Source: a virus. From it: DNA of 22,029 nucleotides. Positions 7,721 through 18,895 of this stretch are shown in pieces. The position numbers and the translations under genes were made by a program. Each line of letters opens with the position of its first letter. The first letter of the stretch is position 1. A model generated the notes under the pieces. That model was given only the letters and a program-made list of their open reading frames with translations, had not been told where the DNA came from and ran no database searches. Location: IMG/VR virus record IMGVR_UViG_3300021959_000453, positions 1 to 22,029 of that record; one strand, 5' to 3'.

Positions 7721-8048
7721 CGGCTCTTTGTATCACAATTGGCTGTAGATCTGCGGGCGCTGATTCAGGCTGATCCATTTGACCAAGCCAATTTTTACCA
7801 AGCCAGACTAACATCGTGTTGTTGCCGTCCATTGCAGTCGTGTATTGCTTACGTCTTAGGCTCATTTTGCCGTGACTGGCCTTTTGTTTGAAATAGTCCG
7901 AAAAACCCATGTTATGCTCGCGCTTACAGGCTGCGTTTAGAGTGTCATAGTCGACGCCCAAAACAGCCGCTTGCTCTTCGCCTGTACAGTGAATTGCACA
8001 CATTTGGTTTACTTGCTGCCAGTCTATATCTTTCAATGGTCTTGCCAT
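7695..8048 (-). CDS. terS: Terminase small subunit
   Basis: A 117-residue protein directly upstream of terL. The N-terminal half contains a helix-turn-helix-like segment (CTGEEQAAVLGVDYDTLNAACKRE in two parts, about residues 21-44). It is followed by FSDYFKQKASHGKMSLRRKQY and MLVWLGKNWLGQMD, a pattern common to small terminases of this type. It recognises the packaging site and recruits the large subunit. The start codon at 8048 has no visible Shine-Dalgarno sequence; instead it lies ten bases after the CCA end of a tRNA-like fold, which may matter for its expression. Confidence 0.88.
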   Translation of the reverse strand: MARPLKDIDWQQVNQMCAIHCTGEEQAAVLGVDYDTLNAACKREHNMGFSDYFKQKASHGKMSLRRKQYTTAMDGNNTMLVWLGKNWLGQMDQPESAPADLQPIVIQRADEANQTTG

Positions 8049-8057
8049 ATTAGTAAG

Positions 8058-8127
8058 TGGAGCGGACAGGTCGGAGTCGCACCGCCCAGTCTACAGGGGT
8101 TCTGTAGAGCCTGCTAATTTTGCCCGC
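8058..8127 (-). ncRNA. tRNA-like structured element upstream of terS (predicted)
   Basis: On the minus strand GCGGGCA (8127-8121) can pair with TGTCCGC (8068-8062) over 7 bp with one G-U. This is followed by T and CCA (8060-8058), as at a tRNA 3' end. Inside are a 7-bp hairpin TCTACAG-AACCC-CTGTAGA (8108-8090) and a T-arm-like hairpin, GGGCGG-TGCGACT-CCGACC (8087-8069, one G-A mismatch), whose 7-base loop resembles a T-loop (TTCRANY) except for G at the second position. The D-arm region is only 12 bases and unpaired, and the anticodon-like loop lacks T33, so it is not a working tRNA. It overlaps the mom 3' end. Confidence 0.45.
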
Positions 8128-8768
8128 CTTTGTTTGATGGATTTCTTTTCACCTAAATACATCCCCGCATTTCGTTTGTCAATCTCTGCGAAAGGTATAA
8201 TTGGCACTGCTAGGTTTTGCTTCTCTAATTCGTCCAGAAATTTTATGTATCGCAACTGATGACCTGACAATCTTTCTGCGCCAGTCATGTCTCTTTTAGA
8301 CGTTCCATGAAGCGCTACAATTTCGCCAGATGGAAGCCGAGCAATTGTTGAGTTCTTGTTGATCGAGGTTAACACAAATCCACTCGCTCTATAAATCGTG
8401 CCGTCTCCACATTGAGTGCCATCAGCAAAGCTCACTACCCATTTGATTTGACTGTATTGCTTCTTGATTATTCTCATACAAACAGCAATTGCGCGACTTT
8501 CGCTAAACTTTGGCAGCAAAGGCCCAAATGCCATTCGGTTCAATTCTATCATGTCGCCCCATTTGGAGCCTTTTACGAGAGGCAATAGCTTTCGGCGATC
8601 TATTGGAGGGCCAAACTGTAAAGCCCCTTCGAGCTTGTCATTGATGAATACGCCAAAGTTCAACTGACTATTTTGAGTCGCCTTCCCTGAGTAATGATAC
8701 TTTTGGATTATTGCTGCGGCTGCGTGCTTTTTTATCAGCTTTACGTGGATTTCTTTAGCGCTGGGCAT
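8091..8768 (-). CDS. mom: Mom-family adenine modification protein
   Basis: A 225-residue protein matching the Mom family. Mom has a GNAT-like fold and, in phage Mu, converts adenines in phage DNA to a carbamoylmethyl (acetamido) derivative that resists many restriction enzymes. Visible family features are KYHYSG (residues 23-28), LNFGVF with EGALQFG (37-53), IELNRMAFGPLLP (74-86) and VVSFADGTQCGDGTIYRASGF (111-131, written in parts: VVSFADG, CGDGTIYRASGF). Mu Mom is of similar length. It overlaps the end of the ParB-domain gene, so the two are probably co-translated. No Com-like translational activator was recognised nearby. Confidence 0.85.
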   Translation of the reverse strand: MPSAKEIHVKLIKKHAAAAIIQKYHYSGKATQNSQLNFGVFINDKLEGALQFGPPIDRRKLLPLVKGSKWGDMIELNRMAFGPLLPKFSESRAIAVCMRIIKKQYSQIKWVVSFADGTQCGDGTIYRASGFVLTSINKNSTIARLPSGEIVALHGTSKRDMTGAERLSGHQLRYIKFLDELEKQNLAVPIIPFAEIDKRNAGMYLGEKKSIKQRRAKLAGSTEPL

Positions 8769-9369
8769 TTTCTAGCCATTGCTTACAGATGAATGTGAGA
8801 GCGTTGCCGTTTGAATTATCGTTAAGCCCTTCGTCTATCAAGGGGTTCGTCCTAGCCTTTAGAACTGCGTCATCGATCAGGGAGGCTTGCTCATCATGCA
8901 AGGTGAACGTCTTTTTCTGGTATGGCTCTTTGTCTCCGTCAACAAGCTCTGGGAACTCTCCGTCTATGTCCGTCAAGGCAGAAAGCTCCTCAACATCAAA
9001 GCCGAGAAGATCTAAGTCAAAGTCCATTGAGCCGAGCAAATCAATTTCCAATCTCAAAACATCCAAGTCCCAGCCAGCATTCAAAGCTAGTTTATTGTCT
9101 GCAATGACGTAAGCCTTGCGCTGGGCTTCTGTTAAGCCTTCCAGCAGGATAGTAGGCACTAACTTAATGCCAATCTCTTGTGCCGCTTGAAGCCGCCCGT
9201 GTCCTGCAATAATGCCGTTATTCTCATCTATCAAAATCGGGTTAGTAAAACCAAACTCGGTCATGCTGCGCTTGATTTGTTCCACTTGTTCTTTGCTGTG
9301 GGTGCGAGAATTGTTCTCGTATGGAACAAGGTCGGTTGCTGATATGTAATCGATCTTTAAGTCTGCCAT
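8755..9369 (-). CDS. ParB/Srx-domain (ParB-like nuclease) protein
   Basis: A 204-residue protein with an N-terminal ParB-type domain: DLVPYENNSRTHS (13-25), a helix with QVEQIKRSMTEFGF, and the signature IAGHGRLQAAQEIG (54-67), then AYVIADNKLALNAGWD (86-101). Phage versions of this domain usually lie beside, or are fused to, DNA methyltransferases; here the partner is Mom. There is no recognisable helix-turn-helix after the domain, so it is not a chromosome-type ParB that reads parS by itself. It starts at 9369 behind AGAGGGG. The role may be DNA nicking, nucleotide binding or assisting DNA modification. Confidence 0.82.
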   Translation of the reverse strand: MADLKIDYISATDLVPYENNSRTHSKEQVEQIKRSMTEFGFTNPILIDENNGIIAGHGRLQAAQEIGIKLVPTILLEGLTEAQRKAYVIADNKLALNAGWDLDVLRLEIDLLGSMDFDLDLLGFDVEELSALTDIDGEFPELVDGDKEPYQKKTFTLHDEQASLIDDAVLKARTNPLIDEGLNDNSNGNALTFICKQWLENAQR

Positions 9370-9391
9370 TATCCCCTCTCACGGAATGGTT

Positions 9392-9787
9392 TTACATTAT
9401 TGGGCCTGCCTTTATGACTAAATCCGTTTCATCCAACCCTGCCAGATAGCTGTCAAACTTTGCCATTGCTTTGCGACTGTTACCCACCCCATTAAGATCA
9501 GGGTAAAGACTAATCCCACACCCAATGCAGCCCACGACATCAGCAGCAGTATTAGCAACGTGGAACAAGATATGAGTCCGATCAGGAACGTCTTGAACCT
9601 GCCATGTGTCTGGCCCAAACCTTGGGGAATTTGTGCGTCTGACTTTGTATTGCCCTGTTGGGATACAAGACTTAAATGGCACGTTGTTGATCCAGGGGCG
9701 TTCGATTGTCCAGAGTGCAAGGTCGTCAATTTTTAGCCTTCCTAATGTCCTGTCACCGAATAATGCGAACCGCGCGATCTCAATCAT
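9392..9787 (-). CDS. DUF5675-like phage protein
   Basis: A 131-residue protein with the layout of the DUF5675 family: a first strand naming the protein's own side chain pattern (RFALFGDRTLGRLKID), LWTIERPWINNVPFKSCIPTGQYKV, then HILFHVANTAADVVGCIGCG and a Gly-rich VGNSRKAMAKFDSYL near the C-terminus. Members occur in many phages and prophages, often near lysis or packaging genes; their activity is not firmly known. No clear ribosome-binding site precedes the ATG at 9787, but the family's usual N-terminus fits this start. It may be the first gene of the Mom operon. Confidence 0.75.
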   Translation of the reverse strand: MIEIARFALFGDRTLGRLKIDDLALWTIERPWINNVPFKSCIPTGQYKVRRTNSPRFGPDTWQVQDVPDRTHILFHVANTAADVVGCIGCGISLYPDLNGVGNSRKAMAKFDSYLAGLDETDLVIKAGPIM

Positions 9788-9866
9788 GTCGTAGAGTCAA
9801 TAAAGTACCAAAGAATTTTAACACAAACTATGCAAAATAAATCACCTATATATAGCAAAAAAATGT

Positions 9867-9894
9867 TTGCAACTGTTGCCGAATTTGCTACAGT
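9867..9894 (+). promoter_or_regulatory. Sigma-70-type promoter for the plus-strand small-gene operon
   Basis: TTGCAA at 9867-9872 and TACAGT at 9889-9894, 16 bases apart, resemble -35 and -10 boxes. They lie about 30 bases ahead of the AAGGAGA ribosome-binding site (9912-9918) of the first plus-strand gene. The surrounding intergenic DNA (9788-9866) is AT-rich and contains the palindrome CTATATATAG near 9846-9855; a minus-strand promoter for the DUF5675/ParB/Mom genes should also lie here but I cannot place one with confidence. Confidence 0.5.
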
Positions 9895-9895
9895 T
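9871..9895. promoter_or_regulatory. Inverted repeat overlapping the promoter, candidate operator
   Basis: AACTGTTGC and GCTACAGTT are inverted repeats with one mismatch in nine positions, separated by 7 bases. The repeat spans almost exactly the spacer and -10 box of the predicted promoter, which is where a dimeric repressor would block RNA polymerase. The Cro-like protein encoded at 16271-16465 is a candidate binder, but no matching full site is evident in its own control region. Confidence 0.45.
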
Positions 9896-9923
9896 ACTTC
9901 AACAAAACAGCAAGGAGATACAC

Positions 9924-10265
9924 ATGGCAACAAGAGCAACTTATCAATTCATCAACGCATGGGCTGGCACTCATACCGCTTACATTCACCACGATGGCTA
10001 CCCAGAAGGCGCAGCGCAATACTTTTTAAATGGCGACGCGCCAATTTTTAACATCAACGCTTTTATTAGGTCGAATCATAAAGCCGAGATGACCGCATCG
10101 CATGAGATTCACGGCGATACTGAATATCGCTACACAATTCAGGGATCTCATTTACTTGCCCAAAAGCGCATCAATTTCACGAATGAATTTGAGACAATTT
10201 GGGACAGCAGCCTTCAAACCTTTATTGGCAAATACCACGACATGAAGCAAGGGGCCAGCGCATGA
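9924..10265 (+). CDS. Conserved hypothetical phage protein (HHDGYPEGAA type)
   Basis: A 113-residue protein starting MATRATYQFIN, with TAYIHHDGYPEGAAQYF and HEIHGDTEYRY, which I recognise as recurring in small phage and plasmid proteins without known function. The start at 9924 has the strongest ribosome-binding site of the region (AAGGAGA, six bases away); longer reading frames that start upstream would run through the promoter and are rejected. It is the first gene of a plus-strand operon of six tightly overlapping small genes. The His-rich H-H-D motif could bind metal, but this is a guess. Confidence 0.8.
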   Translation: MATRATYQFINAWAGTHTAYIHHDGYPEGAAQYFLNGDAPIFNINAFIRSNHKAEMTASHEIHGDTEYRYTIQGSHLLAQKRINFTNEFETIWDSSLQTFIGKYHDMKQGASA

Positions 10266-10453
10266 GCCGCGACCTTTCCGATAACTTCGAGGCTCTAGTG
10301 CTTGCACTGGAGCTTGCCATCACCGCCCCTGACGAGTCAATGTCAAAACAATGCTCCGAAATGGCCGACCAACTGGCTGGATACATGCAAGTCTCAGAAG
10401 TTGAGCTTGCCAAGCAAATCGCCCTTTCCAATGTATTCGAGGAATGCCAATGA
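10262..10453 (+). CDS. Small helical hypothetical protein
   Basis: A 63-residue acidic, helical protein (MSRDLSDNFEALVLALELAITAPDE and on). The start at 10262 overlaps the previous stop as ATGA, which decides it over a more upstream in-frame ATG. It contains two Met/Gln/Ser-rich helices and one cysteine near each end. I do not recognise a family with a function. Its tight coupling to both neighbours indicates it is a real gene, probably host-modulating like other small early phage proteins. Confidence 0.7.
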   Translation: MSRDLSDNFEALVLALELAITAPDESMSKQCSEMADQLAGYMQVSEVELAKQIALSNVFEECQ

Positions 10454-10626
10454 ACCGCCTGACCAAAATTTGCGTCGCCGTAGCAGTAGTCGCCGCTGTG
10501 CTTTGGATCTCGTCAATGGACTATGCCCACGAGGTCAGTATGTCCAAGGAATATCAATACAACGTCTGTCATGGATACTGGCCCGACTACGAAAACTTGA
10601 AACCAAGCTGCGACGGCATTTTATGA
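10450..10626 (+). CDS. Small membrane-anchored or exported protein
   Basis: A 58-residue protein with a basic N-terminus (MNRLTK) and one hydrophobic segment at about residues 7-21 (ICVAVAVVAAVLWIS), followed by a polar tail with the pattern YQYNVCHGYWPDYENLKPSC. The two cysteines could pair outside the membrane. The start at 10450 overlaps the previous stop as ATGA; an ATG six bases upstream is possible. I have seen the C-x-G-x-W-P-D-Y pattern in other phage proteins without a function. It may be an inner-membrane protein acting early in infection. Confidence 0.7.
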   Translation: MNRLTKICVAVAVVAAVLWISSMDYAHEVSMSKEYQYNVCHGYWPDYENLKPSCDGIL

Positions 10627-10952
10627 GAATCATTAGGTATCGATTTACCGACCCAAAAGACAGCGCAGAGCATGGTGGACTTTGTACGACAGTCAAAGAA
10701 GCTGAGAAAGTCACCAAGGAAATAAGCGGTATTCGTGGGCCGTGGTGGAATAAAAGCACGAAATTTGAATGGGAGGTTTTAACTTTCGACCGCAAAACCA
10801 ACGGCCTAATGGACGCTCTGTATATGGCAATGGAATTCGCTCATGATTTGCACGAGATCGCCCCAATGGCGACAACGATTACTGAAGTAAAAGTTAGCAA
10901 GAACGTGCCAAAAGAGTTTCGCAGGAGTAAATCTTACTTAAACGATGGATGA
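10623..10952 (+). CDS. Hypothetical protein
   Basis: A 109-residue protein starting MRIIRYRFTDPKDSAEHGG by ATGA overlap with the membrane protein gene. A longer open frame in the same phase starts at 10302, but it lacks a good ribosome-binding site and would cover two other genes. The sequence is mixed alpha/beta, with a Trp-rich middle (GPWWNKSTKFEWEVLTF) and a helix DALYMAMEFAHDLHEIAP. I do not recognise a family. It is the last gene before the parS-like palindrome. Confidence 0.65.
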   Translation: MRIIRYRFTDPKDSAEHGGLCTTVKEAEKVTKEISGIRGPWWNKSTKFEWEVLTFDRKTNGLMDALYMAMEFAHDLHEIAPMATTITEVKVSKNVPKEFRRSKSYLNDG

Positions 10953-10953
10953 T

Positions 10954-10969
10954 TGTTTCACATGAAACA
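10954..10969. promoter_or_regulatory. parS-like palindrome
   Basis: TGTTTCACATGAAACA differs by one central base from the near-universal bacterial parS sequence TGTTTCACGTGAAACA, the site bound by chromosomal ParB/Spo0J. It begins two bases after the stop of the preceding gene and 29 bases before the next ribosome-binding region ends. It is also a 7-base inverted repeat with a 2-base centre, so it could be an operator. The ParB-domain protein of this phage lacks a visible HTH, so a host ParB would be the more likely reader. Confidence 0.5.
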
Positions 10970-10997
10970 CAATGATAAATAGGAGCAATAAATAGGT

Positions 10998-11156
10998 ATG
11001 AAACCAACCAGAAATGATATTTTGCAAGCATGGCTGACATTGCAGAAAGTGCGAGAAACTTACAGCCAAACCCGACTGGACGAAGCCGACAAAGTGATGC
11101 TAGTCGATATCATGAAATTACTTGATGACCTTCAGCAGGAAGAGGCGAAACGATGA
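10998..11156 (+). CDS. Small helical hypothetical protein
   Basis: A 52-residue protein (MKPTRNDILQAWLTLQKVRE and on, ending QQEEAKR), strongly charged and predicted to be two helices. The ATG at 10998 is preceded by AGGAG twelve bases upstream, a rather long gap, plus a closer weak AGGT. It ends in an ATGA overlap with the next gene, which supports its being translated. No family recognised. Confidence 0.6.
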   Translation: MKPTRNDILQAWLTLQKVRETYSQTRLDEADKVMLVDIMKLLDDLQQEEAKR

Positions 11157-11245
11157 AAGATAAATTGCTAGTTCCGAAATACACGGGTGGCGCAATGATT
11201 ATTGCCTTTTTATGCGGCTACGTAATCGGGGCTATTCTGCTTTAA
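11153..11245 (+). CDS. Tiny single-span membrane protein
   Basis: Only 30 residues: a basic start (MKDKLLVPK), then one hydrophobic span (GGAMIIAFLCGYVIGAILL) to the C-terminus. It starts by ATGA overlap with the previous gene and its TAA directly abuts the stop codon of the convergent DUF3310 gene, with no terminator between them. Its size and topology suit a small membrane modulator, but no function is indicated. Confidence 0.55.
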   Translation: MKDKLLVPKYTGGAMIIAFLCGYVIGAILL

Positions 11246-11482
11246 TCACCAAGACGGCTTCTTAGGTTGATCCTTTGGGGCCGTTTCTTTCTCTATCAAG
11301 ATTTCGCAATAATGTATTGCTTTGCGTAGATCTTCGACGCCGCCTTTATCCCGCCACCTAGAAATGTATTTGACTACCGCGTGCTCGCAAATGCCTAAAT
11401 TATTCGCTAAGGCGTACTCAAGTGGTTGAATCATCATAGTCTTGTAGTGATTTCCAGCTATTTGCCTGTCAAGTGCTGTCAT
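11246..11482 (-). CDS. DUF3310 protein
   Basis: A 78-residue protein with the DUF3310 signature: DRQIAGNHYKTMMIQPLEYALANNLG, then HAVVKYISRWRDKGGVEDLRKAIHYCEILIE. In many phages this small domain stands alone or is attached to nucleotide-metabolism enzymes; its activity is not known. The start at 11482 overlaps the phosphoesterase stop as ATGA; an upstream extension of the frame lies wholly inside that gene and is rejected. It ends the minus-strand replication operon. Confidence 0.85.
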   Translation of the reverse strand: MTALDRQIAGNHYKTMMIQPLEYALANNLGICEHAVVKYISRWRDKGGVEDLRKAIHYCEILIEKETAPKDQPKKPSW

Positions 11483-12654
11483 ATCAACTCCTGAATGTTT
11501 GCTTTTAATCTTCCCTGCTCTCCGAACGACTTGTGGAGGATTACGCAAGTCATACTTCGAGAACTGGCATAGCCAGCACCAGCGTGATAAGAATCCGCAG
11601 GAGCTAATATATTCCAACTTTCGAACAAGGCTCCAGAGTATTCTTCTTGATTCTTGTGGTGTATGTGACCCGTCCAAACAAAGGTGTGATCTGACTCGCC
11701 CCATTGTTTCCTCAAATTACTAACAATTGACCCGTGAAGATTGGACATTTTAATCCGATCACCGTGATGGGTCACTACCAAATTCTTGCCCCATTGCCAC
11801 CAGATGAACTTGCTCGCGTTATCGAAGACCTTAACCCTTGGGTCTTCCTCAAAGTACAGCCGCATCACCTCATTAAGCCATAAGGCTGCGTCTGGATCGT
11901 GATTACCTCTGACGTTGACTAGCCAGACTTGATTGTGCTTTTCAAGCATACGCAAAACGGTACGCTTTATGACGTTGCTGGCAGCTCTAATAGTCTTCGA
12001 GTAACGACCGTCAGAGTCTAGTAAATTCTTAGAGTTTGGCGTTGAGCTTGTGCTGTCGTTAATGTGCATGAAGTCGCCCAGGTTGACTAGAACCCCAACT
12101 TCACCCGCTGGCGCTGAACCGACCAACCTTTCTATGGCGCTTTCCAGAAGGGTTTGACTAATCTTAACGTCGTAGTCATCGCCCATCGTTTCGCTGTGAT
12201 GAGCAAGCATACCAAGGTGATGGTCGCCAATAATGTAGCTAACCATAAGATCGTCATCAGTGCCTGTAGGCGCGTCAAAGGGAGTGTGTATTCCTGTGAG
12301 TTCATCTTTAAAACCCTCCACAAACTGAGCAATTAGCTCCTCGATCTTTTGCCGCTCTGGCTCTTGTATATGCCATTGCAGGACGATATCGCCGTCCATA
12401 TTGTAGGCTGTGCTGACTCTCTTGGTGGTAAAACCTGGAGCGACTTGCCGGTTAAGGTTTTGATCTGGCGCTACGCCGCCCAACGCAGCTCTGGCGTGAA
12501 CCTTATTGACAGTGTCGGAAATGGTTTTTGGGTCTCGGCTTAATTCTCTGCCCATCGCTGCAAAGGTTAAGCCCTGCATGTGCAGATTTATAATTTTTCT
12601 TTGGTATTCGGTATTACAGAATTCGAGGTGCTGCTCTACACTTCTATTCGTCAT
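11479..12654 (-). CDS. Calcineurin-like metallophosphoesterase with N-terminal helix-turn-helix
   Basis: About 391 residues (393 from the alternative ATG at 12660). Residues 15-60 form a helix-turn-helix-like region (YQRKIINLHMQGLTFAAMGR, then RDPKTISDTVNKV). From about residue 138 there is a metallophosphoesterase with all five metal-binding motifs: GDHH (145-148), GD (195-196), GNHD (252-255), THHGD (297-301) and GHIHH (331-335), numbered from the longer start. Such enzymes include Mre11/SbcD nucleases and phage phosphoesterases. The start at 12654 is six bases from GGGAAG. It lies with NinB, NinG and the helicase, so a DNA end-processing role is plausible. Confidence 0.85.
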   Translation of the reverse strand: MTNRSVEQHLEFCNTEYQRKIINLHMQGLTFAAMGRELSRDPKTISDTVNKVHARAALGGVAPDQNLNRQVAPGFTTKRVSTAYNMDGDIVLQWHIQEPERQKIEELIAQFVEGFKDELTGIHTPFDAPTGTDDDLMVSYIIGDHHLGMLAHHSETMGDDYDVKISQTLLESAIERLVGSAPAGEVGVLVNLGDFMHINDSTSSTPNSKNLLDSDGRYSKTIRAASNVIKRTVLRMLEKHNQVWLVNVRGNHDPDAALWLNEVMRLYFEEDPRVKVFDNASKFIWWQWGKNLVVTHHGDRIKMSNLHGSIVSNLRKQWGESDHTFVWTGHIHHKNQEEYSGALFESWNILAPADSYHAGAGYASSRSMTCVILHKSFGEQGRLKANIQELI

Positions 12655-12895
12655 GCTCATCTTCCCAACTCATTTGAGAAAAAACATTAGAAGCCATTTG
12701 CAAGCGGCCTATTATGCTTGCAATGGCATCTGGGTCTGTGGAGAACGTGCCAGGCATATCAAGATCAAATCCGGTTTGATACTCGGTAATTATGATTGCC
12801 CCAGTAATCTCCCCAGCTTCGCAAGCGTCTAAAAGTTTTCGCAAGACTGCGCGGACTTCTTCGGCATTACGATCTAGGATAGAGACTTCACCCAT
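12644..12895 (-). CDS. Hypothetical protein between ninG and the phosphoesterase gene
   Basis: An 83-residue acidic protein (MGEVSILDRNAEEVRAVLRK and on). It has an N-terminal helix, a hydrophobic strand GAIIITEYQTGFDLDMPGTF, and a helical end DAIASIIGRLQMASNV. It overlaps the end of ninG by 22 bases and the phosphoesterase start by a few bases. There is no clear ribosome-binding site, so translation may be coupled to ninG. The family is not recognised. Confidence 0.65.
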   Translation of the reverse strand: MGEVSILDRNAEEVRAVLRKLLDACEAGEITGAIIITEYQTGFDLDMPGTFSTDPDAIASIIGRLQMASNVFSQMSWEDEHDE

Positions 12896-13419
12896 TCTTT
12901 GTTTTTCGCCTGATATATCGACAGCAAATTTTGCAGCTCGTCAATAGAGTATTTTTTTGGATCATGCGGCCCCTCTAGCCTTTCCACTGAATCCAAGCCT
13001 ATTTTTTTGATTAAGTTTGGACGATATTCAGCCAAATTACCACTTTTGTAATTGTTGCAAACGCTGCATTGCTTGTGGGTATTTTGCTCGTCGAACCGTA
13101 AGGCAGCAGAGTGCCCACCTATGCTCATATAATGACCGGCATGGTATTGTCCTGAGTGATGCCGCTGGCAGCTTATACAAGGGTTAGCGAAGTCTCGGTT
13201 GCGGATAAACTTGTTAAACTCAACTTGAACTCGTTTCAACCAATGCTGCTTGTCGTTGTCTCTTGCCTGTTTCTTTTCTAGCCGCGCAGCTTTCTTGTGA
13301 AGTTTAGATGATTCTTGCCGACCAAAGTCAATCAAGCACTCAGTTTCGTTGCAAGTCTTTTGGAAGCTGCTGAACTGAGGCGTGAACGGTTGCAGACATA
13401 TCTTGCATTTCTTAGCCAT
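12874..13419 (-). CDS. ninG: NinG (Rap) recombination endonuclease
   Basis: A 181-residue NinG/Rap family protein (lambda NinG is about 200). It begins with a treble of cysteines, CKICLQPF and CNETEC, followed by a long Lys/Arg-rich coiled segment. The nuclease-like zinc region has CISCQRHHSGQYHAGHY, a conserved HSAALRFDEQNTHKQC and CSVCN (about residues 81-122). Rap cuts branched DNA such as D-loops and Holliday junctions in phage recombination. It lies directly after ninB, as in lambda. The start at 13419 follows GGAG. Confidence 0.88.
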   Translation of the reverse strand: MAKKCKICLQPFTPQFSSFQKTCNETECLIDFGRQESSKLHKKAARLEKKQARDNDKQHWLKRVQVEFNKFIRNRDFANPCISCQRHHSGQYHAGHYMSIGGHSAALRFDEQNTHKQCSVCNNYKSGNLAEYRPNLIKKIGLDSVERLEGPHDPKKYSIDELQNLLSIYQAKNKEWVKSLS

Positions 13420-13420
13420 G

Positions 13421-13891
13421 CTACTCCATTGCGGTTAAGTGAATACCTAATTCTCGCAAGTGCTGGGCAGTTTTGTCCAAGAATTCAGAGTGCTGTTTTA
13501 CGGTCATCGCGCTGGTCACTAGCAGCTCAAACGGCTCTACCATCATTTCTAGCTTTTGTTCGTATGACATTGGCCTAATGATGCGTTGATATTTTTCTCG
13601 GTATTCAAGCGAATCTCGTTGCAAGATCCGGACCCCGAAGTGGAGCTTACAATATGCTCGGTATTCCCACGCTTTCATGTCACCCTGCGCTTCTGCGTCC
13701 CGCCACCATTGCCACATCATGCGATTCTGCTGTAGCGTTCTATCCTTTTTCGCTTTTCTAATCTGAACGTCAACTGGGTATTCCAAATCAATCTCTGACA
13801 GCATTTTGAACAGTCGATCTCGGTCTTCATTGCTAGACATTGTGATATGGAGACAATCGGTGCTAAGTCGTTCCTTATTGAGCACCTGCAT
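13421..13891 (-). CDS. ninB: NinB-like (Orf) recombination mediator
   Basis: A 156-residue protein resembling NinB/Orf: a first strand-rich part, IRKAKKDRTLQQNRMMWQWW (43-62), with the RSLxQNxxxW-type motif typical of Orf, then KLHFGVRILQRDS and a C-terminal MTVKQHSEFLDKTAQHLRE helix. Orf binds ssDNA and SSB and helps load the annealing protein. It starts by TAATG overlap with the upstream gene and ends two bases before ninG. The similarity is clear in motif but distant in overall sequence, so I am moderately sure. Confidence 0.7.
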   Translation of the reverse strand: MQVLNKERLSTDCLHITMSSNEDRDRLFKMLSEIDLEYPVDVQIRKAKKDRTLQQNRMMWQWWRDAEAQGDMKAWEYRAYCKLHFGVRILQRDSLEYREKYQRIIRPMSYEQKLEMMVEPFELLVTSAMTVKQHSEFLDKTAQHLRELGIHLTAME

Positions 13892-14274
13892 TAGTTCAAC
13901 ACCTTGACGCGGTTAAGACTTAGTTTGTGTCTTCGGTATTCTTCACGGGTTGGCTGGTAGCCTTTGCTCAATTCGTTTTGATAGATCTCAATAAAATAGG
14001 CATCTTCCATAGCCGCATCTCGCGCTGCTCGACTGACGTGTTTCCCTCCGCTTGATTTTAACGGTTCAGAAAATAATGTGCTTATTGGCAAGCCTAACGC
14101 CTCGACAACTTCTAATCCTGTCGCATCGCAGTTGAAGCAGTGCATCAGCACCTTCCCGTCTTTTTCTGTTATTCCTAAGTTTTGGCTTCCGCCTTTATGA
14201 ACTGGGCACCTTGAATAATACTGAGTCCCTTGCTGCTTGACCTTATCCAGCCTGTTTAAGATTTCTTCGATCAC
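13891..14274 (-). CDS. Stand-alone primase-type zinc-binding protein
   Basis: A 127-residue protein with the CHC2-like zinc site of DNA primases: CPVHKG, then KVLMHCFNCDATG (C-x2-H and C-x2-C), followed by LEVVEALGLP as in T7-type primases. No TOPRIM or polymerase domain follows, so it cannot synthesise primers alone. The start is a GTG at 14274, chosen because AAGGGAG precedes it by six bases; the longer open frame overlaps the helicase gene too far. It overlaps the helicase end by 32 bases. It may recognise priming sites for a host or separate phage primase. Confidence 0.72.
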   Translation of the reverse strand: MIEEILNRLDKVKQQGTQYYSRCPVHKGGSQNLGITEKDGKVLMHCFNCDATGLEVVEALGLPISTLFSEPLKSSGGKHVSRAARDAAMEDAYFIEIYQNELSKGYQPTREEYRRHKLSLNRVKVLN

Positions 14275-15727
14275 TGTTTGCTCCCTTGATTTGTAAGTAT
14301 TTAATAAAACCGCCAACCTCTGGCAGTTGCTCTTGCTGGTATTCTGGTTTAATTTTATTGGGCCAGACCCCAAACTTAGCGCGGTAAGCCCAACTTGACC
14401 AACCTTGCTTGTAGCCTTTCTTCCTCGCGTGCTGCTGTAAATCGCCAAGCCAGCGTGATTTCTGATCCACCGTATAACTGCGGTTTGTCTTCTTGATCTC
14501 TTTCAGGATTTGGTTGTCAGACTTTATCAACTGAGCTCTTGGCACCTCATAACCGCATTCACACTTAGGGATCATCATTACCTGATAACATTCGGGGCAG
14601 TCTTGGGTTTTGGGTTCCTGTTTTTCTTTTGTTTGGTTTCTCTCGCGGTATTCTTTCTGACCCTTGTGCAATTCTTCAGGACAAATGTCTTCAGCAAATC
14701 CGTGTCTCGATACGTTTCCAGCATGGTCTAAAATAATCGCATGGGGCTTATCTTCGTGCAACCTTAGAACCCGACCTACCCGTTGGCAGTAGACCGATAT
14801 TGATTTGGTTGGGAATGCGTCAATCATGCACCGAACGGATGGCGCATCGTATCCAGTATTGAGCAAGCGGCTGCAAGATAAAATTTTAAACTTGCCCTCG
14901 TCATGTTCGCGGTAAAGTATCTGCCGCTCCTCGTCTTCCATATACCCGTCAATATGCTCGGCTGGTATACCCGCAGCGTTAAACATTTTCACCAATGTCT
15001 TGCTGTGGTTGATTGATGGGCTAAAGGCTATCGTTTGTGAGTTTTCGCCATACTTGCGCCAGTTCTCAATAATGTCCCCAACCAAATGCATATCTTCCTC
15101 AATCCGTTTGGACAATTCTGTGGGGTCAAAATCAGTGCCGCCTGTCTGTATGCGCTTGGTCTTTATGCCATTAACGTTAGGCTGACGACCGCCGTAATAC
15201 TTGGCTGGGGCCAGATAACCTTGATCCATTAACTCGTTGGAGGTGATCGGCACAATCAGGTCGCTGTAATGCTCTCCCAACCCCTTAGCGTATGGCGTGG
15301 CGCTCAATCCAATAAAAGGGACCGCGCTGTAAGATGCCATCATGCTTGTTAGCGTCTTGTAATGGACGTGGGCCTCGTCAACGATTATTAAGTTAGCCAT
15401 CGGCCATTGTCTGCGTCTGGCTAAGGTTTGAATTGATGCGATCTGAATCTTGGCGTGCCACTTCGCCCTTGGATGATTCCACCCTTGAATCACTCCCGCC
15501 TCAACGCCATGCTTGTCGAACTCATCAATCGCTTGCTGCACCAGTTTTATGCGGTCGCAAATAAATAAGCCCGTCAGTCCTTTCTTTGCTGCGCTGGCTA
15601 ACATTTCAACCGCGACCCTCGTCTTGCCGAACGAGCATGGTGCCGCCAACATGATTCGTTTATGTCCTTGCTTAATTGATTCCCTGCATAGCTGTATGGC
15701 CTTGCTTTGATGTTCCCTTAGTTCCAT
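14243..15727 (-). CDS. SF2 DEAH-box DNA helicase
   Basis: A 494-residue superfamily 2 helicase. From the chosen start: the Q-like REHQSKAI, Walker A APCSFGKT (29-36), DEAH (117-120), SAT (142-144), a C-terminal helicase domain with SRLLNTGYDAPSVRC, and motif VI QRVGRVLR (315-322). A four-cysteine zinc-like cluster, CPEC (377-380) and CECG (389-392), follows. The ATG at 15727 is preceded by AAGGGA; ATG 15751 and TTG 15781 are in frame but less well supported. It probably unwinds DNA during replication or recombination and resembles phage helicases related to UvsW or to type III restriction subunits. Confidence 0.88.
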   Translation of the reverse strand: MELREHQSKAIQLCRESIKQGHKRIMLAAPCSFGKTRVAVEMLASAAKKGLTGLFICDRIKLVQQAIDEFDKHGVEAGVIQGWNHPRAKWHAKIQIASIQTLARRRQWPMANLIIVDEAHVHYKTLTSMMASYSAVPFIGLSATPYAKGLGEHYSDLIVPITSNELMDQGYLAPAKYYGGRQPNVNGIKTKRIQTGGTDFDPTELSKRIEEDMHLVGDIIENWRKYGENSQTIAFSPSINHSKTLVKMFNAAGIPAEHIDGYMEDEERQILYREHDEGKFKILSCSRLLNTGYDAPSVRCMIDAFPTKSISVYCQRVGRVLRLHEDKPHAIILDHAGNVSRHGFAEDICPEELHKGQKEYRERNQTKEKQEPKTQDCPECYQVMMIPKCECGYEVPRAQLIKSDNQILKEIKKTNRSYTVDQKSRWLGDLQQHARKKGYKQGWSSWAYRAKFGVWPNKIKPEYQQEQLPEVGGFIKYLQIKGANSDRRNLKQAG

Positions 15728-15842
15728 GTGCTTCCCTTTTATTTTTGGCATAGGCCAGCTTTTTCCCTTTGCATATCTCAACCATTGGATTCGTTAATTC
15801 CTTTAGGCTTTGCGAGATAACATCCTTAGATGCGGTACTCAT
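15672..15842 (-). CDS. Small basic hypothetical protein overlapping the helicase start
   Basis: A 56-residue protein (MSTASKDVISQSLKELTNP, then KGKKLAYAKNKREAHGTKG) ending inside the first 56 bases of the helicase gene in another frame. Its ATG overlaps the upstream gene's stop as ATGA, the coupling used throughout this phage. The C-terminal half is strongly basic, suggesting nucleic-acid binding. It is short enough to be missed by automatic gene calling, and no family is recognised. Confidence 0.5.
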   Translation of the reverse strand: MSTASKDVISQSLKELTNPMVEICKGKKLAYAKNKREAHGTKGTSKQGHTAMQGIN

Positions 15843-16057
15843 TTGCTTTCGCTTTCCTGGCTAGGCGCTACCCTGACCAACTCACTTGAGTCTTTGCGTA
15901 TTGGACGTGAGTCGGGACAAGCTGTCAGTCCTATAACATGCTCACGAATTACTGCTTTATCAGTTGGACGCACAGTTAAGCGCCACTTCTGATCGGCAGG
16001 AATGGTTGAAGTATGATTTAAAAGGTGAGAAAATCGAAACCGTGTCGGTTTGCGCAC
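15839..16057 (-). CDS. Hypothetical protein
   Basis: A 72-residue open frame from a GTG at 16057, basic in its N-terminal part (MRKPTRFRFSHLL). It has a more protein-like centre, WRLTVRPTDKAVIREHVIGL, and a polar tail. It ends in an ATGA overlap with the next gene, which argues that its C-terminal end is really translated. The start is doubtful: no good ribosome-binding site is visible and the GTG lies in one arm of a hairpin; a GTG at residue 29 is an alternative. Family not recognised. Confidence 0.45.
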   Translation of the reverse strand: MRKPTRFRFSHLLNHTSTIPADQKWRLTVRPTDKAVIREHVIGLTACPDSRPIRKDSSELVRVAPSQESESK

Positions 16058-16061
16058 GGTT
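16038..16061 (-). terminator. Hairpin at the start of the 72-residue gene (attenuator-like)
   Basis: On the minus strand AACCGTG and CACGGTT form a perfect 7-bp stem with a 10-base loop, followed by TCGATTTT. It could act as a weak terminator or as a structure hiding the GTG start at 16057. The stretch 16062-16143 contains a possible -10 box (TATAAT, 16131-16126) on the minus strand without a clear -35 box, and only a 34-codon open frame; I call no gene there. Confidence 0.4.
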
Positions 16062-16143
16062 GGATCTTACTCAATCTGTCAAATCGGCCTTCAGGGACTG
16101 GTAATCCCGCCGACACATTCACTTTATTATAACCCCCACAAAA

Positions 16144-16254
16144 TTAAAAGCCTTTTCTTGGTAATGTCGCTGTGATACGCTTTGCGGAGCTTCCTTGCTG
16201 GTTGCTCCACGGCGTTCCCTTGCGCCATTGGCCTCGGCTGTAGTGATTACTCAT
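16144..16254 (-). CDS. Very small basic Trp-containing peptide gene (uncertain)
   Basis: A 36-residue open frame (MSNHYSRGQWRKGTPWSNQQ and on) ending in LPRKGF, rich in Arg, Lys and Ser. It starts 16 bases after the stop of the Cro-like gene and has only a weak ribosome-binding site. A longer in-frame version from 16341 would overlap the Cro-like gene and is rejected. The amino-acid makeup is unlike random shadow frames nearby, but the evidence is slim. Confidence 0.35.
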   Translation of the reverse strand: MSNHYSRGQWRKGTPWSNQQGSSAKRITATLPRKGF

Positions 16255-16270
16255 TACGGTCGGGGCTTTC

Positions 16271-16465
16271 TTATTTGCACCACATGATTTTTTCACGCAG
16301 CAGCTTAATCTGATGAACTTGGTTGTTCTTGTCAAACTCAAGCAAGCACCCGTCGCTTTTGGCCCAGTATTCTAGGCGCTGCCGACTGATCCCGAGCACC
16401 TTAGCTAGTGCGTTCAGGTTGGTGTTGGCATGTTCCACAAAATCGTAAATTGACAGTTCGCGCAT
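16271..16465 (-). CDS. Cro-like transcriptional regulator
   Basis: A 64-residue small HTH protein: IYDFVEHANTNLNALAKVLG and ISRQRLEYWAKSDG contain the helix-turn-helix (about residues 17-40), followed by a beta-hairpin-like end FDKNNQVHQIKLL. This size and plan fit lambda Cro and its relatives. It is the first gene of the leftward replication operon, with a very strong AGGAGG site nine bases before the ATG, and it faces the annealing-protein operon across a 112-base divergent control region. It probably represses one or both promoters there. Confidence 0.8.
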   Translation of the reverse strand: MRELSIYDFVEHANTNLNALAKVLGISRQRLEYWAKSDGCLLEFDKNNQVHQIKLLREKIMWCK

Positions 16466-16519
16466 AATTTTATCCTCCTAATAGGCCTATCTTACATCAT
16501 AATTCTTGCAAAAAATAGT

Positions 16520-16549
16520 TTGCACAATACTTATTTTATGCCTTACAAT
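16520..16549 (+). promoter_or_regulatory. Sigma-70-type promoter for the annealing protein / SSB operon
   Basis: TTGCAC (16520-16525) and TACAAT (16544-16549) with an 18-base spacer form a convincing promoter, about 16 bases before the AAAGGAG ribosome-binding site of the first gene. The preceding TTGCAA at 16506 and the TTTGCAC here are repeated half-site-like sequences that may be Cro-like operators. A leftward promoter for the Cro-like gene must lie in the same 16466-16577 region, but its boxes are less clear. Confidence 0.6.
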
Positions 16550-16577
16550 AAAGGTCTAACCAGCAAAGGAGTAATAC

Positions 16578-16835
16578 ATGGGAAACCAAACCACAGAAAA
16601 TTTAGTCGGTGATCTTGAAGATTGGATCTTTGAGATTTCTAGGCTTGTAAAAAGCGGTCATCAATTATCGCCTGAAGCATTGGTGTTCTTGCAAAACATC
16701 CACCCAGCGCTAGACAAGCTAAGTGAGGAAATGCTTGAAAATGAACAGGCATGGAGCGAAATGAAGCAAGCAGAAGCCGAAGAAAATAATGCTTATCTTC
16801 AAGGAGCGGCAGCATCAGTTCGGGAGGTCTTATGA
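16578..16835 (+). CDS. Hypothetical acidic helical protein
   Basis: An 85-residue acidic protein (MGNQTTENLVGDLEDWIFEI and on), almost entirely helical, with a Glu/Ala-rich C-terminal half (QAWSEMKQAEAEENN). It starts at 16578 behind AAAGGAG, directly after the predicted promoter, and overlaps the next gene by ATGA. It is the first gene of the recombination operon. No family is recognised; the charge would suit a DNA mimic or protein inhibitor, but nothing proves that. Confidence 0.7.
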   Translation: MGNQTTENLVGDLEDWIFEISRLVKSGHQLSPEALVFLQNIHPALDKLSEEMLENEQAWSEMKQAEAEENNAYLQGAAASVREVL

Positions 16836-17014
16836 TTCCTGACTGGATTTTGTCATTACAGTCTAGCGCCACTTGGGCACGTCGGTATGAGAATCGAGCT
16901 AACTTTGAGTGGGACGAAGACGTTGCAGAAGAATTGCAAATTATTGCAGAAAGATTAGAAACTTTATTATCTGAACAAGAGGAGAGATATGATGAGTGTA
17001 TGGCAAACGCTTAG
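16832..17014 (+). CDS. Small hypothetical protein
   Basis: A 60-residue protein starting MIPDWILSLQSSATWARRYE, with an acidic helical second half (EDVAEELQIIAERLETLLSE). It starts by ATGA overlap and has GGGAGG four bases before the ATG. Its end overlaps the annealing-protein gene by 23 bases in another frame. Family not recognised. Confidence 0.65.
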   Translation: MIPDWILSLQSSATWARRYENRANFEWDEDVAEELQIIAERLETLLSEQEERYDECMANA

Positions 17015-17600
17015 CTCAATTAATGTAAACGATCACACCGAAAGCAAAGGCAACTTGACCTACCTGTCATGGGCTTGGGCTTGGGCTGTAACTAAGCAGC
17101 ATTACCCAGAGGCAACGTATGCTTTCTTGGCAAACGAGATCCACAAAGACGAGACAATGACAGTTCATTGCATTGTAACAATTGAGGGCATAAGCCACGA
17201 AATGTGGTTGCCTGTAATGGATCACCGCAACAACGCCGTAGCAAATCCTAACGCCTTCCAAATCAACACCGCCAAGATGCGATGCTTGACCAAAGGCTTG
17301 TCGATGCACGGCTTAGGCTCTTACATTTACGCTGGCGAGGATTTGCCAAAAGGCGAACCCGAAAAAACTTATGAGCAATGGTGCCAAGAAAACAGCGACA
17401 GCATTATTGCCATCAAAGCAGGGATTGCTAACGACGATTTCTCAACCGCCTCTGAAGCATGGTTTGAGTTAGATGAGGAAACCAAAATAGCATTGTGGAA
17501 AGCGCCAACTAAAGGAGGCTGTTTCACCACGATTGAGCGTGAAATCATGAAGTCAGCAGATTTTAGAAAATTGTACGTCAACGAAGGGGAAAGTAAGTGA
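16992..17600 (+). CDS. Sak3-type single-strand annealing protein (DUF1071)
   Basis: About 202 residues with the DUF1071 signature: KGNLTYLSWAWAWAVTKQHY near the N-terminus, then VTIEGISHEMWLPVMDHRNN and FQINTAKMRCLTKGLSMHGL, ending in SYIYAGEDLP (about residue 120). This family includes the Sak3 recombinases, Rad52-like proteins that anneal complementary ssDNA during phage recombination. The C-terminal 80 residues are an acidic helical extension. ATGATG offers two starts; the second (16992) is better spaced from AGGAG. SSB follows immediately, a common pairing. Confidence 0.85.
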   Translation: MSVWQTLSSINVNDHTESKGNLTYLSWAWAWAVTKQHYPEATYAFLANEIHKDETMTVHCIVTIEGISHEMWLPVMDHRNNAVANPNAFQINTAKMRCLTKGLSMHGLGSYIYAGEDLPKGEPEKTYEQWCQENSDSIIAIKAGIANDDFSTASEAWFELDEETKIALWKAPTKGGCFTTIEREIMKSADFRKLYVNEGESK

Positions 17601-17971
17601 GCATTAGTGTAACAAGTAAATTAAACGACAACGCAAGAGAATTTAAAGCTGGCGAGTCAACTGGGTTTGGCCTCCGCTTGGGAGTCAAGTTCTACAACAA
17701 TCAAACTCGCGCAGATGAATGGACAAACTACGAATGCGCGATATTCACTCGCACTGATAATCAGGCAAATTATTACCGCCAAGCGCTTGTCAAGGGGGCG
17801 GTGGTTGAGGTGAGCGGGTCAGGGTGCTGGATTAAGACCTTTGAGGGCAAGAACGGAACAGTGAACACGATCTCAATCTTAGACCCGAAACTAGGATACG
17901 TTTATCGCGCTCAATCAGAACAAAACCAGCCGCCAGTGGATAACGCACTAGAAGATGACATACCGTTTTAG
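17597..17971 (+). CDS. ssb: Single-stranded DNA-binding protein
   Basis: A 124-residue OB-fold protein starting from a GTG that overlaps the upstream stop as GTGA. Strand-rich sequence with FGLRLGVKFYNNQTRADEWTNYECAIF in two parts, aromatic residues for base stacking (Y/W/F in WTNYECAIF), GAVVEVSGSGCWIKTF, and a flexible Gln/Pro-rich linker. It ends in the acidic tip EDDIPF, the hallmark by which bacterial and phage SSBs bind partner proteins. It would coat ssDNA and recruit the NinB/Orf and Sak3 proteins. Confidence 0.9.
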   Translation: MSISVTSKLNDNAREFKAGESTGFGLRLGVKFYNNQTRADEWTNYECAIFTRTDNQANYYRQALVKGAVVEVSGSGCWIKTFEGKNGTVNTISILDPKLGYVYRAQSEQNQPPVDNALEDDIPF

Positions 17972-17990
17972 GCTGTTTTAATAAAAAAGG

Positions 17991-18062
17991 TGACTGCTGG
18001 GGAATTGCACCCCATTGACGAGAAGGAGAGGAGGGGAAACGTCAAGGCACTAGCCGCAGTCA
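17991..18062 (-). ncRNA. Four-way-junction, tRNA-like structured element at the end of the holin operon (predicted; probable terminator)
   Basis: The 72 bases fold completely with no unpaired bases at the junction. On the minus strand: TGACTGC pairs with GCAGTCA (7 bp, 18062-18056 with 17997-17991); GGC-TAGT-GCC; TTGACG and CGTCAA around a 19-base loop; and TGGGG-TGCAATT-CCCCA, a T-arm-like hairpin. It is followed by CCTTTTTT, so minus-strand transcripts could end here; on the plus strand there is only a short T-tail. Its first three bases are the holin stop codon. It has a tRNA's size and acceptor and T-arm sizes, but no anticodon arm. It lies between convergent operons. Confidence 0.6.
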
Positions 18063-18458
18063 TTTATCTCTGTGTACATTGTTTTTCTTCTCGTATGTTC
18101 TCATCGCGCCCAGCCCAAGCATTCCCATTAAAACGGGCATCATGGTTTCTAGGGGGACGAGAGGTATAACTATGTCTAACTCAAGCAAAGCCAGCACAAA
18201 GTTGCTGAATGGGATAGTAATAAAGTTGCCAAACATACCTAGACCACATGTCCAACCGATGAACGGCCTCCAACCACTTACCATCAGGTTAGAGTTGGCC
18301 GCTTCGACCTTATTGATAGCCATCTGACCTTTAGCAAGCTCCTGAGCGTGTTGATCGGCCATTGTAGCCAGGTCATGCGCCAGTCTAGCCTTCTGGTCTT
18401 TGTCCTCTATAAACTTGTCTAACAGACCCGTAACAGGGCCAATGAGTGACTGAAGCAT
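18060..18458 (-). CDS. Holin (3-TM, gene-transfer-release type)
   Basis: A 132-residue protein of the 'holin of 3TMs' group. The N-terminus is soluble and helical (residues 1-55, ending AINKVEAANSNLMV). It is followed by the conserved SGWRPFIGWTCGLGMFGNFI (61-80) and hydrophobic spans at about 65-92 and 96-118, ending in a basic tail. Such proteins make the inner-membrane hole for lysis or particle release. The start at 18458, behind GAGGT, matches the family's usual N-terminus. It is the last gene of the fibre-to-holin operon. Confidence 0.85.
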   Translation of the reverse strand: MLQSLIGPVTGLLDKFIEDKDQKARLAHDLATMADQHAQELAKGQMAINKVEAANSNLMVSGWRPFIGWTCGLGMFGNFITIPFSNFVLALLELDIVIPLVPLETMMPVLMGMLGLGAMRTYEKKNNVHRDK

Positions 18459-18460
18459 AG

Positions 18461-18895
18461 CTACCTCACAATCGCAAATATTATAGTGAAACAAGCGTAC
18501 AGGCCGACACAAACCAGACTACACGCAACCACAAGCCCTACTATGTGCATTCGCTGATTAACTTTCTGGATGTGAGCATTCTTGGCCTCCAGCCTTGCCT
18601 TGCGAGCCTTAGCTTGAAAGATAATAAAATCGTCCCAGAGACCAGCCCGTCCGTAATAAACCATGAAGTCTTTTAATTCTTCCTCTGCCTTCTTGATCTG
18701 CTCCAGAGCCATAAACTCCTCGGCATCACTGGCAAACAGAGACTTCTTATTCTTTTCTTGGCGTAGTTTTAAGTCTTCCTTAGCGCCCACCATCTTACCG
18801 ATAGGTCCAAAACAATCCGCCAAGTCCCTGCCGTTCCCAATAAACTCTTTGACCACCCCGTAGGCGGCATTAAAAGCAGCGAGTTCAGCAATCAT
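18461..18895 (-). CDS. Charged protein with C-terminal membrane anchor
   Basis: A 144-residue protein. An N-terminal part (AAFNAAYGVVKEFIGNGRDL) is followed by a long charged helical region, and a hydrophobic span closes it at about residues 117-142 (IVGLVVACSLVCVGLYACF). The start at 18895 follows GGAAG. The type recurs near fibre and holin genes of aquatic phages; I know no proven function. Position next to the holin makes a role in lysis, such as a spanin-like or lysis-timing protein, plausible. Confidence 0.65.
   Translation of the reverse strand: MIAELAAFNAAYGVVKEFIGNGRDLADCFGPIGKMVGAKEDLKLRQEKNKKSLFASDAEEFMALEQIKKAEEELKDFMVYYGRAGLWDDFIIFQAKARKARLEAKNAHIQKVNQRMHIVGLVVACSLVCVGLYACFTIIFAIVR

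Follow-up and report, generated by a model that had tools for sequence, protein, structure and literature searches.

A tRNA-Gly-like RNA linked to phage mom genes as a probable glycine source for the Mom DNA modification enzyme

The locus and its two tRNA-like elements

The stretch of DNA analysed here (the window) comes from IMG/VR, has phage genes and comprises the 22-kb virus record IMGVR_UViG_3300021959_000453 (22,029 nucleotides, nt). On its minus strand lies a transfer RNA (tRNA)-Gly-like element of 70 nt (E1; 8058..8127) that is linked to the gene mom (8091..8768, minus strand), which encodes a protein of 225 amino acids (aa) of the family PF25680 (Mom). A ParB-like gene (8755..9369, minus strand) is located immediately upstream of mom. 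On the other side, 9 nt past E1, begins a small open reading frame (ORF; 7695..8048, minus strand), which by itself matches neither PHROG nor Pfam and is taken as the gene of the small terminase subunit (terS) by its position before that of the large subunit (terL; 6506..7720, minus strand). A second, separate tRNA-like element (E2; 17991..18062, minus strand) is found 3′ of a holin gene (GTA_holin_3TM; 18060..18512, minus strand), the stop codon of which shares the first bases of E2.

The acceptor stem of E1 is formed by the 5′ strand GCGGGCA (8121..8127, minus strand), with G1, C2 and G3 of the glycine identity, and the 3′ strand TGTCCGC (8062..8068, minus strand), which closes a stem of 7 base pairs (bp). 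It is followed by the discriminator U73 at 8061 and an encoded CCA at 8060-8058 (together 8058..8061, minus strand), so that the 3′ end reads U73-CCA. The T-arm, GGCGG-TGCGACT-CCGACC (8069..8086, minus strand), carries a conserved G50.A64 mismatch, and G55 replaces U55. An anticodon-like hairpin (8090..8108, minus strand) encloses the mom stop codon; read with a 7-nt loop it contains ACC (C35 C36), and in the lowest-energy fold the loop shrinks to 5 nt.

An initial annotation of this sequence had described the two minus-strand folds, the T-CCA behind E1, the overlap of both elements with the ends of the upstream genes and the lack of a third copy. All of these observations are confirmed, the last by the two patterns tried in the window. 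The statement that neither element has an anticodon arm does not hold for E1, which possesses an anticodon-like arm with CC in its loop. The T-arm core shared by both elements occurs twice in the window at up to one mismatch, compared to 0.91 occurrences expected (20 of 100 shuffled sequences also give two), and a more general T-arm pattern occurs twice compared to 0.30 expected (5 of 100 shuffles). Fold z-scores are -1.66 for E1 and -3.66 for E2. ARAGORN lists no tRNA anywhere in the window, and Rfam 15 lists no match in it at the gathering threshold, at E1, E2 or elsewhere. Judged by the window alone, chance would be hard to exclude for either fold; it is the relatives that settle their reality.

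A widespread family of E1-type RNAs

Viral contigs were scanned for the T-arm core GGCGGTGCRACTCCGACC, yielding at least 120 stretches and, with earlier loci, 135 places, 131 of which display a matching 7-bp acceptor stem and reduce to at least 93 distinct copies (all counts out of 93 refer to these). Four places were discarded, namely one sequence present in L263 and L357, then L293, and also L325, truncated at the stretch edge. Among the 93 copies there are 51 different acceptor-stem pairs. Class A comprises 47 copies that align without gaps as a cloverleaf of 76 nt; class B comprises 38 copies with a shortened D region, including E1 of the window (37 were aligned, with L332 left out); the other eight differ in length. 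A covariance model built from class A (R1) matches E1 with 46.9 bits (E 1.2e-9).

The reverse approach started from the window Mom protein, with which 35 loci were identified across bacterial genomes from several phyla, none of them contained in R1. Matches of R1 are located behind mom in 28 of these 35 loci (29 matches, 27 distinct; hereafter the Mom-found copies). Because the T-arm letters of the 93 copies were set by the search patterns, conservation of the T-arm is judged from the Mom-found loci only.

Both sets display covariation. The 47 pattern-found sequences of class A score 0.591, compared to 0.162 (standard deviation 0.012) after shuffling and at most 0.149 for slid alignments; 96.9% of cells are paired, and 13 pairs show changes on both sides. 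A less clear measure, the number of further pair types, is equalled by 10 of 500 shuffles. The 27 Mom-found copies, in an alignment fitted to the model, score 0.640 compared to 0.153 after shuffling, changes in the T-stem included. The initial annotation had set a lack of compensatory changes in relatives as refuting the elements beforehand; such changes are present for E1-type and E2-type elements alike (see below for E2), and support both.

E1 is thus a member of a widespread family of tRNA-like RNAs that is absent from every library searched. Rfam 15 and ARAGORN mostly miss it in the loci tested: one of eight sampled E1-type loci (L393) reaches the Rfam tRNA model RF00005 at the RNA, and ARAGORN calls a tRNA-Gly (tcc/acc) exactly there in 6 of 49 loci (L367, L374, L387, L391, L392, L393) and in 1 of 14 further E1-type loci (L354). 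The use of R1 as a pure marker of the family was abandoned, since ordinary tRNAs score as well: of the extra matches in 16 whole genomes, ten were given to ARAGORN, which identified four as tRNA-Gly, two as tRNA-Ala, two as tRNA-Glu and one as tRNA-Cys, and made no call for the last. Weak R1 matches away from mom therefore carry no meaning.

Retention of the glycine identity set

The glycine identity set of bacterial tRNA is listed as U73, G1-C72, C2-G71, G3-C70, C35 and C36 (Table 1 of PMC9976931). The E1-type family retains this set. G1-C72 is present in all 93 copies, C2-G71 in 92, G3-C70 in 88 and U73 in 91, and E1 of the window has all four; the corresponding numbers for the 27 Mom-found copies are 27, 27, 24 and 26. 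Copies with A73 instead are L372, L329 and L348. C35 and C36 occur in all 47 copies of class A, a CC in the middle region occurs in 35 of 37 aligned copies of class B, and CC is likewise held in the listed loops of the 27 Mom-found copies. The acceptor pairs 4 to 7, which change in pairs, and the loop positions 33, 34 and 38 are variable.

CCA is encoded in 71 of the 93 copies and in 19 of the 27 Mom-found copies. The other 22 of the 93 (L248, L266 and L271 among them) would need the CCA-adding enzyme of the host. The record of Salinibacter phage B2_17 has a tRNA-Gly annotated at the RNA, with a match to the Mom profile just upstream. For Psychrobacter phage Y8A, which carries two copies of the RNA (see below), no tRNA genes are reported in the paper on that phage.

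Linkage of the RNA to mom

Mom neighbours of the 93 copies were called with a Mom profile built from the Mom-found bacterial loci and the window. An ORF segment of at least 60 residues ends near 88 copies; 81 of these 88 match PF25680 and 80 match the PHROG Mom family. A mom gene on the same strand adjoins 87 of the 93 copies (L313 being counted by a weak match at the contig edge only), at its 3′ end in 83 cases and with the RNA ahead of mom in four (L267, L307, L322, L329). The 83 copies at the 3′ end include 77 overlapped by the mom frame, four that lie within 10 nt behind it, and two (L245, L310) behind a mom gene apparently split in two frames. For the six copies without mom in the fetched stretch, L251 and L297 are situated within about 100 nt of the contig end, L128 has a truncated mom beside the RNA (weak PF25680 match), and the L289 contig holds a strong PF25680 match, the position of which fits directly upstream of the RNA if the stretch represents the last 11,388 bases of the contig. 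The last two, L279 and L306, are discussed below.

In the Mom-found loci the RNA starts no more than 70 nt from where the Mom match ends in 26 of 28 cases, and at 199 nt (L372) and 332 nt (L367) in the other two. Three loci negative by R1 (L382, L386, L395) display a matching GCG..CGC-TCCA stem behind mom by eye. Tandem pairs of the RNA lie behind a single mom gene in L362 (2390-2457 and 2462-2530) and L396 (1499-1567 and 1574-1642). In a Micavibrio genome (L370), roughly 0.5 kb past mom and the RNA, the other strand carries a fluoride riboswitch match (61.5 bits; 4235-4295).

Among 80 terS relatives, mom and the RNA occur together in 13, mom alone in two, the RNA alone in one (on a contig cut inside mom), and neither in 64; these figures are read as counts, as relatedness inflates the Fisher value. 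Within this set, the RNA thus goes with mom and not with terS. The search of relatives upstream of terS and downstream of holin genes, as proposed in the initial annotation, did recover the fold ahead of terS in 14 of 80 terS relatives (stems altered in some) and the T-arm pattern at 2 of 80 holin relatives; the E1-type element, however, follows mom. The window and Psychrobacter phage Y8A (L362) both have a ParB-like gene immediately ahead of mom, in a cassette of ParB-like gene, mom, RNA, terS and terL.

In a phylogeny of 82 Mom proteins, the 14 rows counted as lacking the RNA fall into few groups, with four label changes (at least three of them forced) compared to a mean of 13.1 after shuffling; bootstrap support in this tree is unsettled and long branches meet.

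Fitness for translation

Several positions required of a translational tRNA are mostly lost. In class A, U8 is present in 3 of 47 copies, U33 in 19 and the GG of the D-loop in seven. The Mom-found copies, which are free of search bias in this respect, have T54-T55-C56 in seven of 27 cases and lack it in 20, and the T-stem pair 50/64 is a purine mismatch in 26 of 27 (G.A in 23, A.A in 3). The translational core (U8, U33, T54-U55-C56) is therefore not found in the family overall, with single copies such as L393 coming close. Staphylococcal tRNA-Gly species that serve the cell wall are described as evading EF-Tu via changes in the T-arm (PMC9976931). By analogy, E1-type RNA may escape EF-Tu, and it probably stands outside translation.

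The Mom enzyme and its donor

The window Mom protein matches PF25680 with 154.2 bits (cut-off 27.1; E 4.5e-45). Its AlphaFold 2 model (mean predicted local distance difference test score 90.6) aligns best with the solved structure of Mu Mom (8bv8), at 33% identity across 188 residues and a Z of 22.2, followed by GNAT acetyltransferases with Z of at most 13.6; by this model, Mom has a GNAT fold. No aminoacyl-tRNA transferase is present among the best 50 structural matches in either of the two listings, which we give no weight either way. GNAT-fold enzymes that do use aminoacyl-tRNA include FemABX and leucyl/phenylalanyl transferase (PMC4964394).

Of the 80 mom ORFs beside the RNA, 65 read through it, nine stop inside (including the type of the window) and six stop earlier. 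A conserved C-terminal peptide was considered as an explanation of the T-arm core and rejected: 59 of the 65 read-through ORFs encode GGATPT, five use another frame and one neither, with the nucleotides and pairs kept throughout.

Proposed mechanism

The Mom product is N6-carbamoylmethyl-adenine, which contains a glycine-like unit. Mom alters adenines in this way and thereby disguises phage DNA. Based on the dataset described above, we consider it likely that E1 is a dedicated, non-translational glycyl-tRNA that supplies Mom with glycine for this modification. The RNA would be co-transcribed with mom and excised in a tRNA-like manner at G1 and at the CCA end; processing by RNase P and RNase Z, of which an RNase P-type cut in the late transcript had been proposed in the initial annotation, would be a likely maturation step. 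The glycyl-tRNA synthetase of the host would then charge the RNA, which is proposed because G1-C72, C2-G71, G3-C70, U73, C35 and C36 are retained. The mostly lost U33, T54-U55-C56 loop and intact T-stem may keep the charged RNA from translation. Mom would subsequently move glycine from the RNA onto the N6 amine of adenines in the DNA of the phage. In a rearrangement thereafter, attack of the glycine nitrogen on C6 would turn the former N6 into the amide and so yield N6-carbamoylmethyl-adenine. DNA with this modification withstands restriction by the host.

With slightly less assurance, we regard it as fairly likely that momylation in general depends on charged tRNA and not on coenzyme A (CoA). 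Phages would keep a glycyl-tRNA of their own, mostly shut off from the ribosome, as the glycine donor of Mom, those that have no such copy, Mu for instance, would draw on the tRNA-Gly of the host, and the L306 case would extend the scheme to a second GNAT family.

A number of observations weigh against this proposal. The RNA occurs without Mom on the contigs L279 (83 kb) and L306 (49 kb) and in the complete genome of Verrucomicrobia phage P8625, which was found separately from the 93 copies. Conversely, mom occurs without the RNA in the Mom-found loci L376, L377 and L379, and in L371 as judged by R1; in the terS loci L135 and L158; and in 11 of 12 examined phage records with a distant Mom, Mu included, which show no R1 match. 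Mom chemistry can therefore not require a dedicated copy, and those phages would need host tRNA-Gly. The two class B copies L275 and L295 have lost CC from the middle loop, which is now CUUCG. The 27 Mom-found copies have degenerated less than those of class A, with U8 kept in eight and a D-region GG in 17, and are thus closer to ordinary tRNA, so some may still enter translation. Excision of the RNA would remove the stop codon of mom wherever the frame traverses the whole RNA, as it does in the 65 read-through ORFs; loss of the stop codon on maturation may possibly serve as a control. Regarding the donor, Mom is said to move an acyl group from acyl-CoA 'such as glycyl coA' to adenine N6 (PMC7824862). 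The CoA-loop consensus of GNAT enzymes is kept in 12 of 64 Mom proteins; hence, its absence was dropped as a proof against a CoA donor, the sequence leaves the donor of Mom undecided, and CoA is a possible donor.

The remaining Mom-bearing phage record of the twelve (35 records of the phage collection match the Mom protein) is Psychrobacter phage Y8A with its two copies. In the Tenericutes locus L371, a tRNA-like stretch lies behind mom (3745-3830) with A73-CCA, a D-arm and a T-arm and no anticodon arm; its fold z-score of 0.07 resembles shuffled sequence. DNA-modification genes are located near the three Mom-less copies of L279, L306 and P8625: a C5 methylase gene in L279, a PF22559 phage GNAT-like gene together with a ParB-like one in L306, and a gene for a ParB-methylase protein in P8625. 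In L306 (13726-14274, with the RNA at 12970-13045), the RNA lies behind the ParB-like gene and the PF22559 gene; perhaps the PF22559 protein represents a second family of GNAT enzymes that uses the same RNA. In P8625 (L361:1984-2059), the RNA is situated inside an ORF of 64 aa, after the ParB-methylase gene and before terminase genes.

Alternative explanations

The element might instead act in cis as a part of the mom messenger RNA, where cutting by RNase P or RNase Z would separate or destroy the mom message ahead of the downstream (often terminase) genes, or regulate mom, with charging being irrelevant. In line with this, 83 of the 93 copies overlap or abut mom at its 3′ end, and, with 65 of 80 mom ORFs traversing the RNA, processing and a complete mom message are mutually exclusive; eight of the ten Mom-found loci tested also have a large terminase gene downstream. 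We nevertheless judge this explanation unlikely, in view of the four copies that precede mom, of glycine positions that are near-fixed while the acceptor positions 4 to 7 vary freely in pairs, and of C35 and C36 that are fixed while positions 33 and 34 vary. Retention of the glycine identity set also makes RNase P cutting or termination inadequate as a full account. Phage tRNAs can serve purposes other than decoding, and a glycine-charged RNA with another job, such as a decoy or substitute against host defences that target tRNA, or a cofactor that steers Mom, would equally retain the identity set. Such a role is improbable, ranking just behind the cis-acting element, as it leaves the strong linkage to one DNA-modifying enzyme across different phages and the glycine-like unit in the Mom product without a counterpart.

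That the RNA is an ordinary translational tRNA-Gly for codon supply appears very improbable, despite the ARAGORN calls in 6 of 49 loci, the Rfam tRNA match of L393, and the presence of TTC in 7 and of U8 in 8 of the 27 Mom-found copies. The losses of U33 and U8 in class A, the reduced D region of class B, the 20 Mom-found copies without TTC and the 26 with a T-stem mismatch all speak against it, and it gives no reason for the linkage to mom. Least probable of all is an action as DNA, as a hairpin or packaging site ahead of terS, which the initial annotation had also raised. E1 does lie 9 nt before the terS start, and mom with the RNA often heads packaging genes, given that, of ten loci tested among the 28, eight have a recognised large terminase gene behind the RNA, with several Pfam types represented. 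Of the 65 relatives that share this terS and have no detected mom, however, 64 lack the RNA, the exception being the contig cut inside mom. The terS and terL type of the window was found by tblastn within 3 kb downstream in none of the 28 Mom-found loci, and no Pfam terminase is present among the ten ORFs neighbouring the four copies that lie ahead of mom (L267, L307, L322, L329), with L322 having a portal-type gene 5 kb on, preceded by an unrecognised ORF of 471 aa. The tRNA-specific positions are fixed as well. A terminase leader or packaging site is thus disfavoured, as the RNA tracks mom and the terL types downstream vary.

Relation to known systems

The proposed glycine donor resembles bacterial tRNA-Gly in the cloverleaf layout of class A, the full glycine set and the CCA encoded in most copies, and differs from it in the frequent lack of U8, U33, the D-loop GG and TTC, in the 50/64 mismatch, in the reduced D region of class B and in the tie to mom. 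Another system for comparison is the non-proteinogenic tRNA-Gly of Staphylococcus aureus, which serves peptidoglycan and has T-arm changes said to let it escape EF-Tu (PMC9976931), T-arm changes being present in the E1-type RNA too; its user family, FemABX, shares the GNAT fold with Mom (PMC4964394). The E1-type RNA is encoded by phages, its proposed acceptor is adenine in DNA and its enzyme would be Mom. FemABX and leucyl/phenylalanyl transferase act on peptidoglycan precursors or proteins, and transfer to DNA by either is not described in the available text of PMC4964394. Mu Mom belongs to the same PF25680 family as the window Mom, and no such RNA is present in the 3.7-kb stretch searched around mom of Mu. 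The donor put forward in print is an acyl-CoA, with glycyl-CoA as the example (PMC7824862). In the open-access PMC papers searched, no link of Mom to tRNA and no description of E1-type RNA was found.

Charged tRNA is known to feed the synthesis of cell wall, lipids, proteins and natural products. To our knowledge, no DNA modification that depends on aminoacyl-tRNA has been described; if the proposed route is true, charged tRNA would also feed DNA chemistry. The donor of Mom appears unsettled in the literature covered, with glycyl-CoA given as an example, and a covarying RNA with the glycine set that is tied to mom names a concrete and testable donor. In addition, E1-type RNA offers a marker of potentially momylated phages.

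The element behind the holin gene

E2 consists of an acceptor stem (TGACTGC/GCAGTCA), a GGC/GCC mini-hairpin, a 6-bp stem with an all-pyrimidine loop of 19 nt (18039-18021) and, in the 3′ half, a 5-bp T-stem with a 7-nt loop followed by CCTTTTTT. A convergent ORF that ends in ..DDIPF (17597..17971, plus strand) faces it. Scans for E2-type elements gave 33 and 34 stretches, mostly chance matches by eye; nine distinct elements passed the T-arm filter, at 17 places including the window (L001/L163 and L008/L180 being the same contigs). Common to these are the acceptor stem, the GGC/GCC mini-hairpin, the 6-bp stem with a loop of 18-22 nt that is 89-100% pyrimidine, and the T-arm. In these nine hand-segmented sequences, 188 of 189 cells are paired and 12 of 21 pairs show both-sided changes. 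Eight of the nine follow the end of a holin gene, L439 (with an element identical to that of the window) follows another gene, and all nine face an ORF on the opposite strand. Among the holin relatives, the two loci with a T-arm pattern within 250 nt are L001 and L008, and two of the 80 offer less than 200 nt to inspect.

E2 belongs to a family of its own, which is smaller than that of E1 and lies behind the holin gene. The initial annotation had treated E1 and E2 as a matched pair that flanks one late operon and punctuates its transcript. Plus-strand ORFs occur between the two, so they bracket no single operon, and E1 tracks mom and not terS. That they are two copies of one element is ruled out: four of the nine E2 forms have a TTC loop, E2 has no glycine identity set, and no R1 match occurs in the 14 E2-bearing stretches other than the window. 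Overall, the interpretation given in the initial annotation is partly supported. ARAGORN makes no call at E2 in six loci and Rfam none in four. Terminators were sought across 17500-18600, and none is listed at E2, the T run of which comes after a closed multi-branch acceptor stem, unlike in an intrinsic terminator. As a tentative guess, E2 might be a 3′-end or termination element with a pyrimidine loop that binds protein or RNA. The window and the L082/L442 contig carry both E1-type and E2-type elements.

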